From NCBI RefSeq assembly GCF_024758725.1, contig NZ_CP096972.1, forward strand, positions 416,001-480,000: a DNA stretch of 64,000 nt, given 5' to 3'. The position numbers and the translations under genes are program-made. The first letter of the stretch is position 1. Every line of letters starts with the position of its first letter. Source of the DNA: Sphingomonas sp. SUN039. Lineage in GTDB: Bacteria > Pseudomonadota > Alphaproteobacteria > Sphingomonadales > Sphingomonadaceae. Under the pieces are notes generated by a model that was not told the DNA's origin, ran no database searches, and worked only from the letters and a program-made list of their open reading frames with translations. Below are positions 54,254 through 64,000 of the stretch, one piece after another.

Positions 54254-54865
54254 TTACGGGCGAACCTGGTTACCCTGTTCTTGCAGGAGCTCTTCAAGCA
54301 ATGCGTGCAACGGTCGCAAATTTGGCGTACCTTTTTCGGCAGAATCTGTCGCTGTTTCAAGAGCTTGTATATAGTCCGGGCGCCGTTTCCGTATCAATTC
54401 CGGAAGGATGGGATTGCCGTCTATCCATTTACCGAGCTTCATACAGAGTATAAAATAGCATGCCGCGCGGGCTGTCCGCCCATTTCCGTTAACAAAGGGA
54501 TGAATATGGTTGAGCTTCCACAGAACAAAGGCCGACAGAAAGACAGGATCGACAATTTCCCACTTCCTATTCACCTCGTCGATGAACATGTGCATCAGTG
54601 CGGGGACTTGGTAATGAGGTGGGGGTTCGTATTTGCCGACCCTGACGCCGCAGGGTCTAAGTTGACCAGCTGATGCGTGCAAACATGATATGGAATGGTG
54701 GTTCAGCGACAGAAAAAATTCGAGCGACACCATGTCGCGTTGCAGCGCCAAAGAGGCGTTCACGAACGACCGCAAAAACGTATATTGGCGATCAAGATTC
54801 TCAATCGCCAAATTCTGGTATGCGGGGTTTTGCTCGTCCCTACCGACCAAATCGTAAATGTACAT
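54254..54865 (-). CDS. Fic-domain protein (putative AMPylating toxin)
   Basis: 203 residues. The Fic active-site loop HPFVNGNGRTAR at 122-133 is complete (HPFx[D/E/N]GNGRxxR), with VLWKLNH just before. No obvious inhibitory (S/T)xxxE(G/N) helix within the protein. Likely transfers AMP (or other nucleotide moieties) to a Ser/Thr/Tyr of a target protein. It sits 4 bases downstream of a small gene, and AT-rich codon use contrasts with the flanking ubiE and mutM, suggesting horizontal transfer. Confidence 0.85.
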   Translation of the reverse strand: MYIYDLVGRDEQNPAYQNLAIENLDRQYTFLRSFVNASLALQRDMVSLEFFLSLNHHSISCLHASAGQLRPCGVRVGKYEPPPHYQVPALMHMFIDEVNRKWEIVDPVFLSAFVLWKLNHIHPFVNGNGRTARAACYFILCMKLGKWIDGNPILPELIRKRRPDYIQALETATDSAEKGTPNLRPLHALLEELLQEQGNQVRP

Positions 54866-56905: not shown

Positions 56906-58279
56906 TTGGCGTCGGGGGATGATCTGGACAGCGTTATCGAGGATCGCGCGGCGGCGGTCTGGCCGACGATCCGCGACGGTCTGCGTCGCGATATCGGCGC
57001 GCGCAGTTTCGACCAGTGGCTCGGGCGCACCCGTTACGACGGCTTTTGCAAGGTCGACCGCACCGTGGCGCTCGCGCTCCCGTCCGCGTTCATGGCCAAT
57101 TGGGTGCAAAAGAATTTTGCCGACCGGCTGAATCTGGCCTGGCGCACGGCGCTGCCCGATGTCACCGGGGTCCGCATCCTCGCCGACGATGGCGATGTTG
57201 TTCAGAATTTCACGGCGGCGGCCGCCGTTGCCGAAACGCCCGCCGCAGCGGTCGAACCTGCCTTCCGCTTCGACCCGCGTCTGACGTTCGACAATTTCCT
57301 TGTCGGCGACAGCAACCGTATCGCGCACAATGCCGCGCGCGCGATTGCCGAGGGCGGGCCGATGCGGTTCAACCCGCTGTTCGTGCATGGGCCGACGGGG
57401 CAGGGCAAGACGCATCTGCTTCATGCCATCGGCCACGGCTATATGGCGCGCAAACCGCACGCCCGCGTGCTGTACATGTCGGCGGAACGGTTCATGATCG
57501 ATTTCGTCCATGCCATGCGGACCAAGGATACGCTGGCGTTCAAGGCGCGGCTGCGCTCGGTCGACCTGCTCATGATCGACGATTTCCAGTTCATCGCGGG
57601 CAAGGAAACGACGCAGGAGGAATTCCTCTATACCGTCGACGAACTGATGCGCGGCGGGCGTCGCCTGATCATCAGCGCCGACCGGTCGCCGCACGAGTTG
57701 GACGGCATCGAGGGGCGCATCCTCTCGCGCCTGACGCAGGGCCTCGTCGTCGATATCCAGCCCGCCGACTATGCGCTGCGCCGCGCCATCGTCGAGGCCA
57801 AGGCGAATGCCATGCCGCAGGCGATTCCGCCGCTGGTCCGCGACCTGCTGGCCGCGCGCATCGCCTCGAACATCCGCGAACTCGAAGGCGGCCTCAACCG
57901 GCTCGTCGCCTATGCTGCGTTGAACGACCGCCCCATCGACGAGGCATTTGCCGAGGACACGCTGGCCGACATGTTCCGCGCGGGGCGGCGGCGCGTGACG
58001 ATCGACGAAATCCAGAAGCGCGTATCGGACCATTTCAAGATCCGTCAGGCCGAAATGGTGTCGGCAAGGCGTGCCCGCGTGGTCGCAAGGCCCCGCCAGA
58101 TCGCGATGTATTTGTCGAAGCAATTGACCCCGCGGTCATTGCCCGAAATCGGGCGCCGCTTCGGCGGGCGCGACCACACCACGGTCATCCATGCGGTCAA
58201 GCAGATCGAAAAGCTCCGCGCGGCGGACACCGAGATCGACGCCGACGTGCGGTTGCTGCTTCGAAGCCTCGAAGGCTAA
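56906..58279 (+). CDS. dnaA: Chromosomal replication initiator DnaA
   Basis: 457 residues from the TTG (MASGDDLDSV) after aggcgggg. Domain I (1-75), linker, AAA+ with NPLFVHGPTGQGKTHLLHAI (Walker A), LLMIDDFQFIAG (Walker B), and domain IV GRRFGGRDHTTVIHAV. Opens oriC and loads the helicase. Overlaps the convergent DUF4136 gene by 4 bases. Confidence 0.96.
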   Translation: MASGDDLDSVIEDRAAAVWPTIRDGLRRDIGARSFDQWLGRTRYDGFCKVDRTVALALPSAFMANWVQKNFADRLNLAWRTALPDVTGVRILADDGDVVQNFTAAAAVAETPAAAVEPAFRFDPRLTFDNFLVGDSNRIAHNAARAIAEGGPMRFNPLFVHGPTGQGKTHLLHAIGHGYMARKPHARVLYMSAERFMIDFVHAMRTKDTLAFKARLRSVDLLMIDDFQFIAGKETTQEEFLYTVDELMRGGRRLIISADRSPHELDGIEGRILSRLTQGLVVDIQPADYALRRAIVEAKANAMPQAIPPLVRDLLAARIASNIRELEGGLNRLVAYAALNDRPIDEAFAEDTLADMFRAGRRRVTIDEIQKRVSDHFKIRQAEMVSARRARVVARPRQIAMYLSKQLTPRSLPEIGRRFGGRDHTTVIHAVKQIEKLRAADTEIDADVRLLLRSLEG

Positions 58280-58956
58280 CGCTTCTGCCGCTCCGGCGGC
58301 GCCACCGTAATCCGCACCGTCTGGCCGCTGTTCCCCGGGAACCCGGTAAACATCGCTTCGATCAGGTTCGGCACCAACGTCGTCAGGTCGTTGTCCGAAG
58401 ACATCGCTTTCGCCGTCCCCTCGAACACGCGCTCGCGGCTGCCCTTGCGCTCGATCTTCATCGTCAGTTCGGACTGGTAGACGGTGTAGCTTTCGACCTC
58501 GTCGTAGCGCGATCCGTAGAGGAACGGATCGTCATAGCCATAGATCCAGGCGCGGCGACCGAAGCCCCAATAGGGTCGATACGGCCCCCAGCCGTTCGAA
58601 TAGCCAAAGCGCGGGCCATAGCCTGCCCCGAAGCCGCCCGGCCCGAACCCCGGCACGGACCGCACCCGGTCGCGCCCCTTGTCGACGCCATAGTCGAGCC
58701 GCACGACGAGGTTCGCGTCCCCCGGCGCAACCGCTCGCGTATAGCCATAGCCTGCCAGCCGCTGTGCTACCGTGTTCGCATATTGCGCGAACTCCAGACT
58801 GTTATCGAGCCGCGGGTTCTCGGCGATAATGGCAAACGTCTGACCCTGTGGCGCGGGCAGTTGCTGAAAGCGCGAAACCTGCGCCTGAAACGGCGCGGCG
58901 CACCCGGCAAGGGCAAGGAGTGCGGCGGGGGCGAGAGCGGTGAGAAAGCGGTTCAT
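58276..58956 (-). CDS. DUF4136 lipoprotein
   Basis: 226 residues. Lipobox LALAGC (RFLTALAPAALLALAGC). FAIIAENPRLDNSLEF and an end domain VPNLIEAMFTGFPGNSG match DUF4136. A Gly/Tyr/Pro-rich middle (about 105-145) is low complexity. Membrane-anchored, function unknown. Start 58956 has agaggg just upstream. Confidence 0.8.
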   Translation of the reverse strand: MNRFLTALAPAALLALAGCAAPFQAQVSRFQQLPAPQGQTFAIIAENPRLDNSLEFAQYANTVAQRLAGYGYTRAVAPGDANLVVRLDYGVDKGRDRVRSVPGFGPGGFGAGYGPRFGYSNGWGPYRPYWGFGRRAWIYGYDDPFLYGSRYDEVESYTVYQSELTMKIERKGSRERVFEGTAKAMSSDNDLTTLVPNLIEAMFTGFPGNSGQTVRITVAPPERQKR

Positions 58957-59036
58957 GGCGACCCTCTTATCATAAGTCGACCGGATGTGGTCGATCTGCG
59001 TTGAACGGGTGGTGAACGCGTGGACCGCGCGCAAGT

Positions 59037-60386
59037 TCAAGCGGTGCTGACGAGCCGGTAGCCGACTGCGGGTTCGTTCAGGATAAGTCTCGGATGCGAC
59101 GGGTCGACCTCGAGCTTTTGCCTGAGGGTGCGGACCGCAACGCGCAGATAGTCGATATGGTCGACCTGCGCCGGGCCCCAGACCGCACGCAACAGGTGCG
59201 CGTGGCTCAACACGCGCCCGGCATGTTTCGCCAGTTCGGCGAGCACCGCATATTCCTTCGGCGTCAGGTGGATGGTTATGCCATCCCGCGATACCGCGCG
59301 GCTGCGGAGATCGACGACAACATCGCCGAAATTCAGCGGATCGTGGTCCGGGCCGGGGCCGAGATCGGCAAGCGATTCGATGTAGCGGTCGAGTTTCACT
59401 GTTTCGGCGGCGACCTCGGCGACGAGCGTTTTGTCGGCTGTCCCCTCGCGACGCAAGGCGCGCGCGGCCGCCCCGATGGCGTTCAAGCGCGGCTTGATGT
59501 CCGCGCCGATCGAGCCGAGCAGCACCGACCGCATCCGGTCGCGTTCACGCAGCGCCACTACCTCGCGCGCTTCGCGCTCGACTGCGGCGCGTGCCATCGC
59601 CAGCGCAATCTGGTCGAGCAGGCTGCCGAGCAGCGGCAGTTGGTCGTTGGCGACGGGGGAGAGGCCATCGTCGCGCGCCAGCCCCACGGCGGCCAAAATG
59701 GCACTATCCGATGTTACCGGGCGAAACTGCCAGTCGGCCAGGTTCAGACGTTTAACGCCACGACCTACCGGATCGCCGCTGCTGAGCGCCACGCCGGCCG
59801 CCGCGATATCGCTGGGCGCCAGCGAGGCGATCCCCGGTGCCCCGGCAATGCACACGGGCGCTTCGGGCGGCCCTGCCATCATGACTGCGTTGCACCCGAA
59901 CAGGCGGGCGAGATCGTCGACGCTGACGGCAGAAATGCCGTCCCGGTCGGTGCACGAGAGCAGGCGGCGCGCGAACCCGGCAATCGCCGCATTGCGCGCC
60001 GCATGTGCCGCCGCGATCCGGGCCTGCTCGCGCAGGCGCGCCGCAAGCTGGCTGGTGACGACTGCGACCACAAAGAGGACGACGACCGTGACGATATCCG
60101 CCGGACGATCGATCCGCAGCGTATGATAAGGCGCGGTGAACCAGTAATTATACGCGAGTGCAGACGCCACGGCAGCAGCGAGCGCAGGCCGCAATCCTGC
60201 ATAGATTGCCGCTGCGAGCACAGCGGGAATGTAGAGCAGCACGACGGGCTCAGCACCCCATCGCTCCGAAACGAGCAAGCCGGCAAGGGTTGCCACGGCG
60301 ACAGCCAACAGCGCTGCGGCATAGCGCGTGATCGACACCGACAGCGCAGGTGTGTCGCCCCTCAGGGTCGTGGCATGGTGTTCCAT
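59037..60386 (-). CDS. One-piece KdpD-like sensor fused to KdpE-type winged helix
   Basis: 449 residues from ATG 60386. Four membrane helices (about 22-40, 46-64, 66-82, 96-115) with YNYWFTAPYHTLRIDRPADI (80-99) match KdpD's DUF4118. A GAF-like region (about 135-275) follows. DHp-like helices (284-345) read LLGSIGADIKPRL where KdpD has SHDLRTPL, so the phospho-accepting His is Ala295. No HATPase and no receiver domain follow; residues 353-447 are an OmpR/KdpE winged helix (LTPKEYAVLAELAKHAGRV, VAVRTLRQKLEVDP, NEPAVGYRLV). Divergent from kup; an inverted repeat lies in the kup promoter. Apparent one-component membrane-bound potassium regulator. Confidence 0.85.
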   Translation of the reverse strand: MEHHATTLRGDTPALSVSITRYAAALLAVAVATLAGLLVSERWGAEPVVLLYIPAVLAAAIYAGLRPALAAAVASALAYNYWFTAPYHTLRIDRPADIVTVVVLFVVAVVTSQLAARLREQARIAAAHAARNAAIAGFARRLLSCTDRDGISAVSVDDLARLFGCNAVMMAGPPEAPVCIAGAPGIASLAPSDIAAAGVALSSGDPVGRGVKRLNLADWQFRPVTSDSAILAAVGLARDDGLSPVANDQLPLLGSLLDQIALAMARAAVEREAREVVALRERDRMRSVLLGSIGADIKPRLNAIGAAARALRREGTADKTLVAEVAAETVKLDRYIESLADLGPGPDHDPLNFGDVVVDLRSRAVSRDGITIHLTPKEYAVLAELAKHAGRVLSHAHLLRAVWGPAQVDHIDYLRVAVRTLRQKLEVDPSHPRLILNEPAVGYRLVSTA

Positions 60387-60436
60387 GCGCCCAAAATGAA
60401 CTTGCCTGGCCCTTTCGTCGAGGGGGTCGGGAAGTT

Positions 60437-60465
60437 TTGCATGTGATTCCACATGGAATTTTAAT
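60437..60465 (+). promoter_or_regulatory. Predicted kup promoter with inverted repeat in the spacer
   Basis: TTGCAT (60437-60442), 17-base spacer, TTTAAT (60460-60465). ATTCC-ACAT-GGAAT (60446-60459) fills the spacer, a fitting site for a dimeric regulator. ATG of kup lies at 60490. Confidence 0.5.
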
Positions 60466-60489
60466 GCGGTTCGGCACCATTGCGCGGCG

Positions 60490-62406
60490 ATGGAAAACAC
60501 CAAAACTCTACCGCCTGCTGCCGAGAGCGCGACGGATTCGCATTCGCCTCAAGGCAGCACTTCGGCCCTTACGCTCGGCGCGCTCGGCGTCGTGTTCGGC
60601 GATATCGGAACGAGCCCGCTCTATGCCCTGCAGGCGACACTCGACCCGCGCTACCATCTCGGGGTCAACGTGACCGACCTCTACGGTATCGTCAGCCTGA
60701 TCTTCTGGTCGTTCGTCTTCGTCGTCACGGTGAAATACGTCTTCATCGTCATGCGCTGCGATAATCACGGCGAGGGCGGCAGCCTTGCGCTCTATGCGCT
60801 GATCAAGCGCATGCTGGGCGCGGCGGCACCGAAAGGCTGGCTGCTGATCTTCGCCTTGTTTGCGACCGCGCTATTCTATGCGGACGCGATGCTCACCCCC
60901 GCGATTTCGGTGATCTCTGCCGTCGAAGGTTTGGGCGTCGTCAGCTCGGCATTCCAGCCCTATATCGTCTGGATCGCCCTCTCGATCCTGATCGGACTGT
61001 TCGCAATCCAGCGTCACGGCACCCACCGCGTCGGACGATTCTTCGGCCCGGTCATGCTGGTCTATTTCGCGACCATTGCGGCGATGGGCGTGGTCCATAT
61101 CGTCGATTATCCGCAAGTGCTCGGTGCCCTTAGCCCGGTGCACCTGTGGGGCTTTTTCGCCGCGCATCCTTTTTATTCGTTCCTGTCGCTTGGCGCGGTG
61201 GTCTATGCCGTGACCGGGGCCGAAGCCCTTTATGCTGATATGGGCCATTTCGGTCGCAAGCCGATCACGCTCGCCTGGCTGTCGATCGCCATGCCTGCGC
61301 TTATGCTCAATTATATGGGGCAGGCGGCCATGCTGCTCCGCAACCCTGCGTTTGCCGACAATCCGTTCTTTCATATGGTGCCGCCGTCGCTGACCATCCC
61401 GCTGCTCGTCATCGCGACACTGGCCACGATCATCGCCAGCCAGGCGGTAATCTCGGGCGCGTTCTCGGTCACCCAGCAAGCGATCCAGCTCGGCTTCATC
61501 CCGCGCATGCAAATTCTCCACACCTCGTCGCAGGCGAAAGGCCAGATCTATCTGCCGGTGATCAACTGGGCACTGGCAACGATGGTCGCGCTGCTTGTCG
61601 TCACCTTCCAGCATTCCGCCGCAATGTTGCCTGCCTATGGACTCGCCGTGGTGGGCACGATGCTGATCACGACCCTGATGCAGTATATCGTGGTGTTCCG
61701 CATCTGGCGTGCGCCGCTGTGGCGCGGGGCGATCGGCTTTGCGACCTTCATCACCGTCGATCTCCTCTTCCTCGCCTCGGGCTTTGCCAAATTGTTCGAG
61801 GGTGCCTGGTTCCCCATCCTGATGGGCCTCGTCATCTTCACCCTGCTGACGACCTGGGCAAAGGGGCGGCGGATCATGCGCGACCGGCTCGACGAAGGGG
61901 CAATGCCGCTCTCGGCGTTCATCGCCTCGGCCGCCGAGTCGGTGCACCGCGTGCGCGGCACATCGGTGTTCATGTCGGCAACGCCGGACAGCATCCCCGC
62001 CGCTCTGCTCCACAATCTGAAGCACAACCAGGTGCTGCACGAACGGATCATCCTGTTGACGGTGCAGGTGGCAGGCGTGCCGCACGTCGAGCCCGATGCC
62101 CGCTCGGAAGTCACCGTGCTTGGCGATGGCTTCTTCCGCGTCGTGCTCCGCTACGGATTCATGGAGGAAATCGACATCCCGCGCGATCTCGCCGGTATTT
62201 CGACCTGCGGCGAACCGTTCAACATGATGGCGACGAGCTTCTTCCTCGGTCGTCAGAAGCTGATCGCGTCGAAGCAACGACCGGGCATGGCGTTGTGGCG
62301 CGAACAGCTGTTCGCCTGGATGTCGAAGAACAGCGAAAGCGCGATGGAGTTCTTCAAGCTGCCGACCAACCGCGTCGTCGAACTCGGCAGCCAGGTGCAG
62401 ATCTAG
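60490..62406 (+). CDS. kup: Low-affinity potassium uptake protein Kup
   Basis: 638 residues, about 12 membrane helices then a C-terminal cytosolic domain. [18 protein letters not shown] and [27 protein letters not shown] and [10 protein letters not shown] are KUP/HAK signatures. Proton-coupled K+ uptake. Divergent from the Kdp-like regulator. Confidence 0.95.
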
Positions 62407-63413
62407 CGACCCGAAACCAGCCCCAGCGCATCGTATGCCGCCGCCAGCGTCGGCGCGGCCAGTGCCCCCGCGCGCGTTGCGCCGTCGATCAAAATCGCAT
62501 CGATTTCCGGCGACCTGCGCAGCCCTAAATACCGCTCGCGGATTGGGCTAAGTGCCACCACCAGCCGCTCCGCCAGCGCCGCCTTGAACGGGCCGAAATT
62601 CGCGCCGCCGTATTCCGCCAGCACTGCATCGGCGCTGCGGTCGTCAAGCGCGGCCATGATCGTGATCAGGTTCTTCGCCTCGGGTCGACCCTCCAGCCCC
62701 GCGACGTCGCCCGGCAGCGGCTCGGGGTCGGTCTTTGCCTTGCGAATCTTTTGCGCGATCGTGTCGGCGTCGTCGGTCAGATTTACCCGGCTCATGTCGC
62801 TCGGGTCGGACTTCGACATTTTCGCGCTGCCGTCGCGCAAGGACATGATCCGCGCGGCCGCGGGCGGGATGGTCGGTTCGGGCAGGGTGAACACCTCGCG
62901 GCCCGTATCGGCATTGAACTTGACCGCGATGTCGCGCGCCAGTTCCAGATGCTGTTTCTGGTCGTCGCCGACCGGCACATGCGTCGTCTGGTAGAGCAGC
63001 ACGTCGGCCGCCTGCAGCACCGGGTAGTCGAACAGCGCGACACTGGCACCGTCGCGGTTCTTGCCCGCCTTGTCCTTCCACTGCGTCATCCGGTTCAACC
63101 AGCCCATCCGCGCGGTGCCGTTGAGCAGCCAGCACAATTCCGCATGTGCCGGTACGCGAGCCTGATTAAAAAGAACCGACTTGGTGCTATCGATGCCGCA
63201 GGCGACGAGCGCGGCGGCCATATCGGTCAGCGCGTCGCGCCTCGCCTCGCGGGTCATATGGTCCGACAGCGAGTGAAGATCGGCGAGGAAATACAGGCTC
63301 TGCCCGCCCTTGGCCGCGACCTCGTCCTGCATCCGCACCCAGTTGCGGATCGCGCCGAGGTAGTTGCCGAGGTGGAGGTTGCCGGTGGGCTGAATGCCCG
63401 AAAGGACGCGCAT
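62403..63413 (-). CDS. trpS: Tryptophanyl-tRNA synthetase
   Basis: 336 residues from ATG 63413. [18 protein letters not shown] (HIGH region), [35 protein letters not shown] and MSKSDPSD (KMSKS). Cytosolic aminoacylation. Overlaps the end of kup (convergent) by 4 bases; murJ lies 5 bases upstream on the same strand. Confidence 0.97.
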
Positions 63414-63418
63414 GGGGA

Positions 63419-64000
63419 TCAGGCTTTCCGTGTGAACTGGCGGCGAAGTTCGCCGAGACTGGCCCCGCCGAGCAGCAGGACGGCGACGCCATAGACCGCG
63501 CCGCCGATGCCGCAAAGCGCGACGAGTGCGGTGACCCGCTCCTGCCAGCCGCCCGCCATAAAGGGATCGAGCCACGGGTTGAGCGCGAACAGCGCTGCAC
63601 CCATTGCGGTGCTGGCGGCGATGATGCGGAGCGCCTTTGCCTTGAACCGTGCGTCGAGCTGCAAATGGTTGCGGCGGTGCAGCCAGGCATAGAGCAGCGC
63701 GAAATTGACCCAGGCGGCGAGGGCGGTCGACAGGGCGATTCCGGTAAAGCCCGCGTCGAGGACCAGCACCGACAACAGATTGCCCGCCAAATTGACCAGC
63801 ATCGAGACGACCGCGAGCCGCACCGGCGTTTTGGTGTCCTGCCGCGCGTAAAAGCCCGGGGTCAGCACCTTGATCAGCACATAGGCGGGCACGCCGAGCG
63901 AGAAGGCGGCGAGTGCGCCCGATGCACCCAGCGTATCGGCGGCGGTGAACGCGCCATGCTGGAACACGCCGCGCACCAAGGGGGTCGCGGAGACGACCAG
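63419..64000 (-). CDS. murJ: Lipid II flippase MurJ (N-terminal part outside window)
   Basis: Frame runs off the right edge; about 193 C-terminal residues are visible. [23 protein letters not shown]-like [26 protein letters not shown] (read in parts) and several membrane helices match MviN/MurJ. Flips lipid II for peptidoglycan. Operon with trpS is typical. Confidence 0.93.

Follow-up and report, generated by a model that had tools for sequence, protein, structure and literature searches.

A KdpD-KdpE hybrid beside kup: a probable two-component system turned membrane-tethered one-component regulator

A gene of Sphingomonas sp. SUN039 encodes in a single chain the membrane and GAF parts of a KdpD-type sensor kinase and the DNA-binding winged helix of a KdpE-type response regulator, and lies divergently next to kup, the gene of a K+ uptake protein (Table 1). 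It was analyzed within a stretch of 64,000 nucleotides (contig NZ_CP096972.1, positions 416,001 to 480,000, forward strand), hereafter the window. Twenty-eight loci with this architecture were found, 27 of them intact and all in one family. Comparison of sequences and structures establishes the hybrid architecture, the loss of the phosphotransfer domains, the membership in a single clade, the pairing with kup and the presence of a KdpE-type DNA element. The hybrid is best explained, with a probability of roughly three in four, as a phosphorylation-free, membrane-tethered descendant of KdpD/KdpE that activates kup and probably also its own gene. An earlier note on this DNA had proposed that a KdpD/KdpE system has become a single membrane-tethered regulator next to kup that works without phosphotransfer, and this core claim is supported by the domain composition, the intact reading frames and the link to kup.

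Table 1. Features of the hybrid locus (positions in the window).
Feature	Position	Strand	Remarks
Hybrid regulator gene, 449 aa	59037..60386	-	DUF4118, GAF, DHp-like hairpin, KdpE winged helix
KdpE-type winged helix, residues 349-447	59046..59342	-	
DHp-like helical hairpin, residues 247-341, without phospho-acceptor His	59364..59648	-	AlphaFold helices 247-314 and 319-341
Ala295 codon, His site of the DHp-like hairpin	59502..59504	-	
GAF domain, KdpD type, residues 131-274	59565..59996	-	
DUF4118 membrane domain, residues 22-126, containing YNYWFTAPYHTL	60009..60323	-	Pfam E 3.8e-29
Putative -10 of hybrid gene, CATTTT	60393..60398	-	6 nt before ATG; proposed function
Putative -35 of hybrid gene, TCGACG	60416..60421	-	proposed function
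Putative operator, direct repeat of 11-bp period ATTCCACATGGAATTTTAATGC, consensus AATCCACATGGAATCTTTATGC	60446..60467	+	28/28 loci
Putative -10 of kup, CATTGC	60478..60483	+	CA invariant in 28/28, 11 bp after operator core; proposed function
kup (K+ uptake protein), divergent neighbour	60490..62406	+	K_trans E 2.1e-173

Domain architecture and pairing with kup

According to domain searches and the AlphaFold model, the DNA-binding domain and the membrane helices belong to one chain. The protein begins about 20 residues ahead of DUF4118, and none of the N-terminal KdpD domains gave a Pfam match in it. Residues of the DUF4118 part match the solved membrane segment of E. coli KdpD (2ksf) by sequence comparison (E 2.2e-6). 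The E. coli segment shares Pro and Thr of the AP..T motif with the hybrids, P86 being present in 27/27 and T89 in 25/27 aligned members; K+-binding residues of KdpD were not found among the open-access papers listed in a search for them. The OmpR type of the winged helix is confirmed by both sequence and structure matches, and the winged helices of ToxR and CadC are found among the structure or sequence matches of the hybrid. The structure-alignment rows (VIA-align) mainly test residues 346-449 and the GAF part. The initial observation of a DUF4118 sensor and an OmpR/KdpE winged helix in one gene beside kup is confirmed by domain searches and recurs in the 28 loci.

The neighboring kup passes TIGR00794 with 561.1 bits (cut-off 539.6), and a divergent kup adjoins the hybrid in 28/28 loci, with one contig (L033) ending within kup. 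The orthologues are thus linked to K+ transport, as had been expected. By tblastn (E 1e-8), nine other neighbours from the window were found in 0/24 regions of 10-20 kb from other hybrid genomes, which indicates that the pair was kept while its surroundings were not. Farther away in the window, a Fic/DOC-family gene (54254-54865, minus strand) lies in a stretch of lower G+C content (0.49-0.57) and is perhaps a late insertion between genes that we take to be ubiE and mutM.

All 25 hybrid genomes harbor a further kup elsewhere, and one of them (G464) has two. In the kup tree, the 28 adjacent kups fall into two far-apart clades with 23 and 5 members, respectively, and the hybrids next to the five (window, L032, L033, L092 and L098) are spread over the hybrid tree. 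On this tree, the type of the adjoining kup changes at least three times, and a model with a single clade is rejected (AU p 3.8e-9). Apparently, kup was repeatedly swapped for a different paralogue, with regulator and operator remaining in place.

KdpA was not found in the single-contig SUN039 genome, in which the hybrid adjoins kup and not kdpFABC; two of the 25 hybrid genomes searched contain KdpA (G149 and G350), in neither case beside the hybrid. Lack of kdpFABC was considered as a driver of the collapse and rejected, as genomes with and without the hybrid do not differ significantly in the absence of kdpA (1/12 vs. 50/187, p 0.30).

The intergenic element and the two promoters

All 28 loci contain the consensus of the putative operator between hybrid and kup, and none deviates from it at more than two positions of the 18-mer core. 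The information content is 1.1-2.0 bits in the 22 columns of the element, as compared to 0.06-0.47 bits in the 19 columns upstream. A genome-wide search covered the 199 genomes of the family, and with them 12 of the 25 hybrid genomes. With at most two mismatches allowed, every one of these 12 contained the 18-mer a single time; it was also present in 5/187 others, which have no kup within the 2.4-3 kb fetched; the reversed 18-mer gave no match in the 199 genomes. For the association of 18-mer and hybrid, Fisher's test gives p 1e-15, relatedness being ignored.

The earlier note had read the element as an inverted repeat, ATTCC-N4-GGAAT. This operator was set aside, because the dyad does not include a second conserved block, CTTTATGC, and because unfused loci possess direct repeats. 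The preferred reading of the element is a direct repeat of KdpE type with 11-bp period (CCACATG/CTTTATG). It shares the 6-5-6 geometry with the E. coli KdpE sites, TTTATA and TTTACA at a distance of 5 bp, as these are given in PMC3264566. A partial dyad (TCCA-CA-TGGA) remains inside the element and is not explained away, so that another factor or binding mode is possible.

Among the unfused relatives, YTTAYR-N5-YTTAYR is found once each upstream of kup in L049-L052, which encode short KdpD/KdpE pairs, and upstream of kdpA in L056 and L057, with an expectation of 0-0.025 per locus (200 simulations); it is absent from L101. A weight matrix of the hybrid sites scores 16.0, 23.5 and 18.4 upstream of kup in L050, L051 and L052, respectively, 15.7 upstream of kdpA in L056, and 2.9 in L049 (p 0.007). 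For orientation, shuffle maxima average -4 to -7 and the hybrid elements themselves reach 32-43; L057 and the second kup of the SUN039 genome are at chance level. Most simply, the operator would be an inherited, altered KdpE site.

At kup, no -35 is conserved upstream of the operator in the 28 loci. Hence, the operator seems to replace the -35 of kup instead of filling the spacer between -35 and -10, where the earlier note had placed the repeat. An in-frame kup start follows 23-24 bp after the core in 26/28 loci and 27 bp after it in L089, and L093 has no ATG, GTG or TTG at this place. The operator centre would fall near -33, as in PhoB-type sites.

At the hybrid gene, 24/28 loci share TCGAC(N), followed at a distance of 17 bp by a hexamer and, 6-7 nt farther on (10 in L046), by a start codon; the hexamer starts with CA in 23 of these 24. 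L032, L033 and L099 display TTGGC(T/G) at the position of TCGAC(N), and L096 has TCGACG and no start codon at the usual distance. The distance from operator to this -35 is 16 bp in four loci, 26-28 bp in 13, 37 bp in one and 48-51 bp in 10, which corresponds to helical phase. None of 5000 random draws was as periodic as the 24 loci, relatedness being ignored, and the best-fit period is near 11 rather than 10.5. The spacing classes changed at least five times on the tree of 27 hybrids, and shared ancestry accounts for the phasing in part. With the hybrid ATG taken as transcription start, the operator centres of the 24 loci lie at -60.5 to -61.5, -70.5 to -72.5, -81.5 and -92.5 to -97.5, close to the positions typical of class I activation. 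Both putative -10 elements are weak. Between 60387 and 60489 of the window, each of the divergent start codons stands 6 nt after a CANNNN hexamer, and both mRNAs may therefore be leaderless. No RNA element was detected by Rfam at gathering scores in window positions 58000-64000.

From this promoter geometry, we infer that the hybrid activates kup. Alternatively, the same protein on the same operator could act as a repressor that blocks RNA polymerase while bound and frees kup upon K+ starvation. Such a membrane-tethered repressor is conceivable, given that the gonococcal protein Rsp is reported to repress pilA (PMC10269533), and inspection by eye suggests a -35/-10 pair, TTGCAT-N17-TTTAAT, flanking the operator of the window. 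However, this -35 falls into the poorly conserved upstream columns, whereas the CA downstream of the operator is invariant, and the related sites in unfused loci resemble KdpE sites, KdpE acting as an activator in E. coli. Repression is thus considered unlikely.

Distribution, selection and origin of the fusion

A full-length hybrid is encoded in 12/199 genomes of the family, SUN039 included. An order-level sample of 396 genomes contained 20 hybrids, 13 of them new and all in the same family, with 0/83 in genomes of other families. Three more loci were retrieved from genome contigs of Sphingomonadaceae (two, near-identical) and of Novosphingobium sp. MW5 (L034). The samples of class (385) and phylum (398) gave no full-length match outside the family at a cut-off of E 1e-60, and no hybrid was found in viral contigs. 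The best 15 of 932 plasmid records with a match show two pieces over about 2 kb, like separate kdpD and kdpE. Altogether, the 25 hybrid genomes span 15 genera, as judged by genus codes.

In Novosphingobium sp. MW5, the hybrid (L034:4001-5241) is broken by two frameshifts, due to either decay or sequencing error, next to an operator with an exact 18-mer match and a kup that gives one uninterrupted match. This locus is included in the operator and kup counts and left out of the hybrid protein trees and the 27-member alignment, in which L088-L100 were aligned from the start of the tblastn match, with the start codon not mapped. Genome G467 encodes a sensor-only relative that ends after the GAF part (L101:10861-11688, minus strand, start codon guessed), with kdpA, kdpD and kdpE nearby and no kup within the fetched 18 kb.

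The 27 aligned members all contain DUF4118 and Trans_reg_C, while GAF_3 was matched in 13 and HisKA in eight, the window protein not being among the latter (E 0.01). At the same threshold, HATPase and receiver were matched in 0/27, which speaks against the hidden domains that had been named beforehand as a possible refutation. The hybrid might hence be regarded as a decaying two-component remnant without any regulatory role left. Besides the loss of the catalytic parts, the sensor-only relative and the frameshifted MW5 gene would fit this idea, as would Rsp, which appears to have no role in pilE transcription (PMC6528607). Yet dN is below dS in two close pairs, L032-L033 (0.022 and 0.389, dN/dS about 0.06) and L041-L042 (0.125 and 0.642, about 0.19), which points to purifying selection on the hybrid; the pairs of the window with L038 and L032 were discarded for dS above 1.4. 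Furthermore, mean conservation amounts to 0.84 in the winged helix, and both the element, set in a near-random upstream flank, and the adjoining kup persist in every locus. Decay is accordingly improbable.

Alternatively, the hybrid could still take part in a phosphorelay, with another kinase acting on the DHp-like hairpin. The residue at the His site is Glu in 11 members, Gln in seven, Asp in five, and Ala, Thr, Arg and His in one each. The earlier assignment of Ala295 to this position holds, although Ala is restricted to the window protein. The single hybrid with the DHp His (L098:4596-5891, minus strand, no ATPase found) belongs to G464, the genome with three kup. This member and the eight HisKA matches are in line with a relay. 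The other 26 members lack the His, however, no receiver was matched, and the DNA-binding part is directly fused, so that there is very little room for a phosphorelay. An assembly or frameshift artefact of ordinary kdpDE, which the earlier note had considered, is excluded for practical purposes by 26 other intact members with the same junction from other genomes and by the lack of KdpA in the single-contig genome.

As for the origin of the hybrid, the sensor-part tree (60 rows, without L056, L101 and the repeats L025, L081, L083 and L084 of genomes already included) unites the 27 hybrids in one clade (100/100). By these sequences, the sensor part is sister to that of an unfused kup-linked pair, with the short KdpD of G003 as sister row (97/91). 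In G003, kup is divergent from the short KdpD, which is followed by KdpE. The pair is complete (HisKA, HATPase_c, receiver and Trans_reg_C), the genome lacks KdpA, and its kup is sister to the 23-member clade of adjacent kups (98/89). In the winged-helix tree (96 columns, without L025, L081, L083 and L084), a branch of weaker support (82/79) separates the hybrids from the other rows. The G003 KdpE groups there with L050 and L051 and not with the hybrids, so the sister relation finds no confirmation in the DNA-binding half.

When the family genomes were searched, most of the matches to KdpD ran up to hybrid residues 342-345 and most of those to KdpE started at 345-354 (450-aa numbering), which indicates a junction with almost no linker. 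The matched sensor and winged-helix parts are 21 bp apart in the window, a value set by the choice of queries, as compared to 881 bp in L049, and one deletion would suffice to bridge the difference. Probably, a kup-linked short-KdpD/KdpE system was the ancestor, in which a fusion attached the winged helix of KdpE directly behind the DHp hairpin of KdpD, with loss of ATPase and receiver. In L050, L051 and L052, kup, short kdpD and kdpE share one orientation. KdpE-type sites precede kup in these loci, as a pair 33 bp apart in L050 and L051, and the arrangement looks like a two-component system dedicated to kup.

Proposed signalling and comparison with known systems

The K+ sites of E. coli KdpD have been proposed in its membrane and GAF domains (PMC11018627), both of which are kept in the hybrid. 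These parts may hence still read K+ or turgor. With ATPase and receiver missing and the His present in 1/27 members, the signal most simply passes by conformation via the hairpin, which would hold the hybrid as a dimer and transmit the change mechanically to two winged helices. Bound as a head-to-tail pair to the direct repeat, these could bring RNA polymerase to kup, the operator standing in for the -35 in a PhoB-like manner, and, in helical phase, also to the regulator's own promoter in a class I manner. Activation of both genes would be expected at low K+ or low turgor. The hybrid probably occupies one site in the DNA and thereby controls the adjacent kup. For binding of the target promoter from within the membrane, the conservation of the element provides indirect support. 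The entire scheme, i. e. a KdpD-type K+ sensor without phosphotransfer in which the hairpin couples mechanically to two KdpE winged helices on one genomic site that switch kup and the hybrid gene, is favored with somewhat less confidence than the descent and activating role given at the outset.

The kup transporter is often treated as constitutive, and the hybrid is probably a dedicated regulator for it. Two-component systems are usually described as an outgrowth of one-component ones. Here, the reverse step is visible together with sister lineage, operator and target, in a protein under selection in 15 genera. The system also isolates one question, namely whether the membrane/GAF/DHp module of KdpD can signal without its kinase. 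If the proposal is true, the path from two components to one could be replayed stepwise, because unfused sister pair, fusion product and inherited operator are all preserved.

The hybrid is related to KdpD/KdpE in its membrane domain, GAF fold, DHp-like helices and winged helix. It differs in being one chain, in which neither the N-terminal KdpD/Usp domains nor ATPase and receiver were matched; in the window protein, the His is lost, and the neighbour is kup instead of kdpFABC. The kup-linked short KdpD/KdpE pairs (G003, G127, G035 and G075; L049-L052) share with the hybrid the kup neighbour and related sites upstream of it, in G003 also the divergent layout. They differ in consisting of two proteins, with HisKA and HATPase confirmed in the two that were scanned, G003 and G127. 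In G127, G035 and G075, kup and the pair have one common orientation, unlike in the hybrid loci. Among the open-access papers listed in literature searches, none dealt with a DUF4118/winged-helix fusion or a kup-linked KdpDE.

ToxR and CadC resemble the hybrid in having an OmpR-type winged helix on a membrane protein. They carry it N-terminally, followed by one membrane helix and a periplasmic sensor, whereas the hybrid comprises four helices, a cytosolic GAF part and hairpin, and then a C-terminal winged helix. Closer in kind is Rsp of Neisseria gonorrhoeae, a PilS-PilR chimera in which the membrane part of PilS and the DNA-binding part of PilR form a collapsed two-component system in one membrane protein, and such proteins have been suggested to stem from two-component systems (PMC10269533). 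By the definition given there, a hybrid transmembrane regulator retains a recognizable receiver, HATPase_c or HisKA domain; of these, HisKA was matched in 8/27 members (E 0.01), the window protein not included. Rsp derives from other families, is reported as a pilA repressor (PMC10269533), and no series of inherited operators is mentioned for it in the accessible portions of PMC10269533 and PMC6528607. Gonococcal Rsp is the nearest precedent, and the Kdp case comes with better evidence that the product is used.
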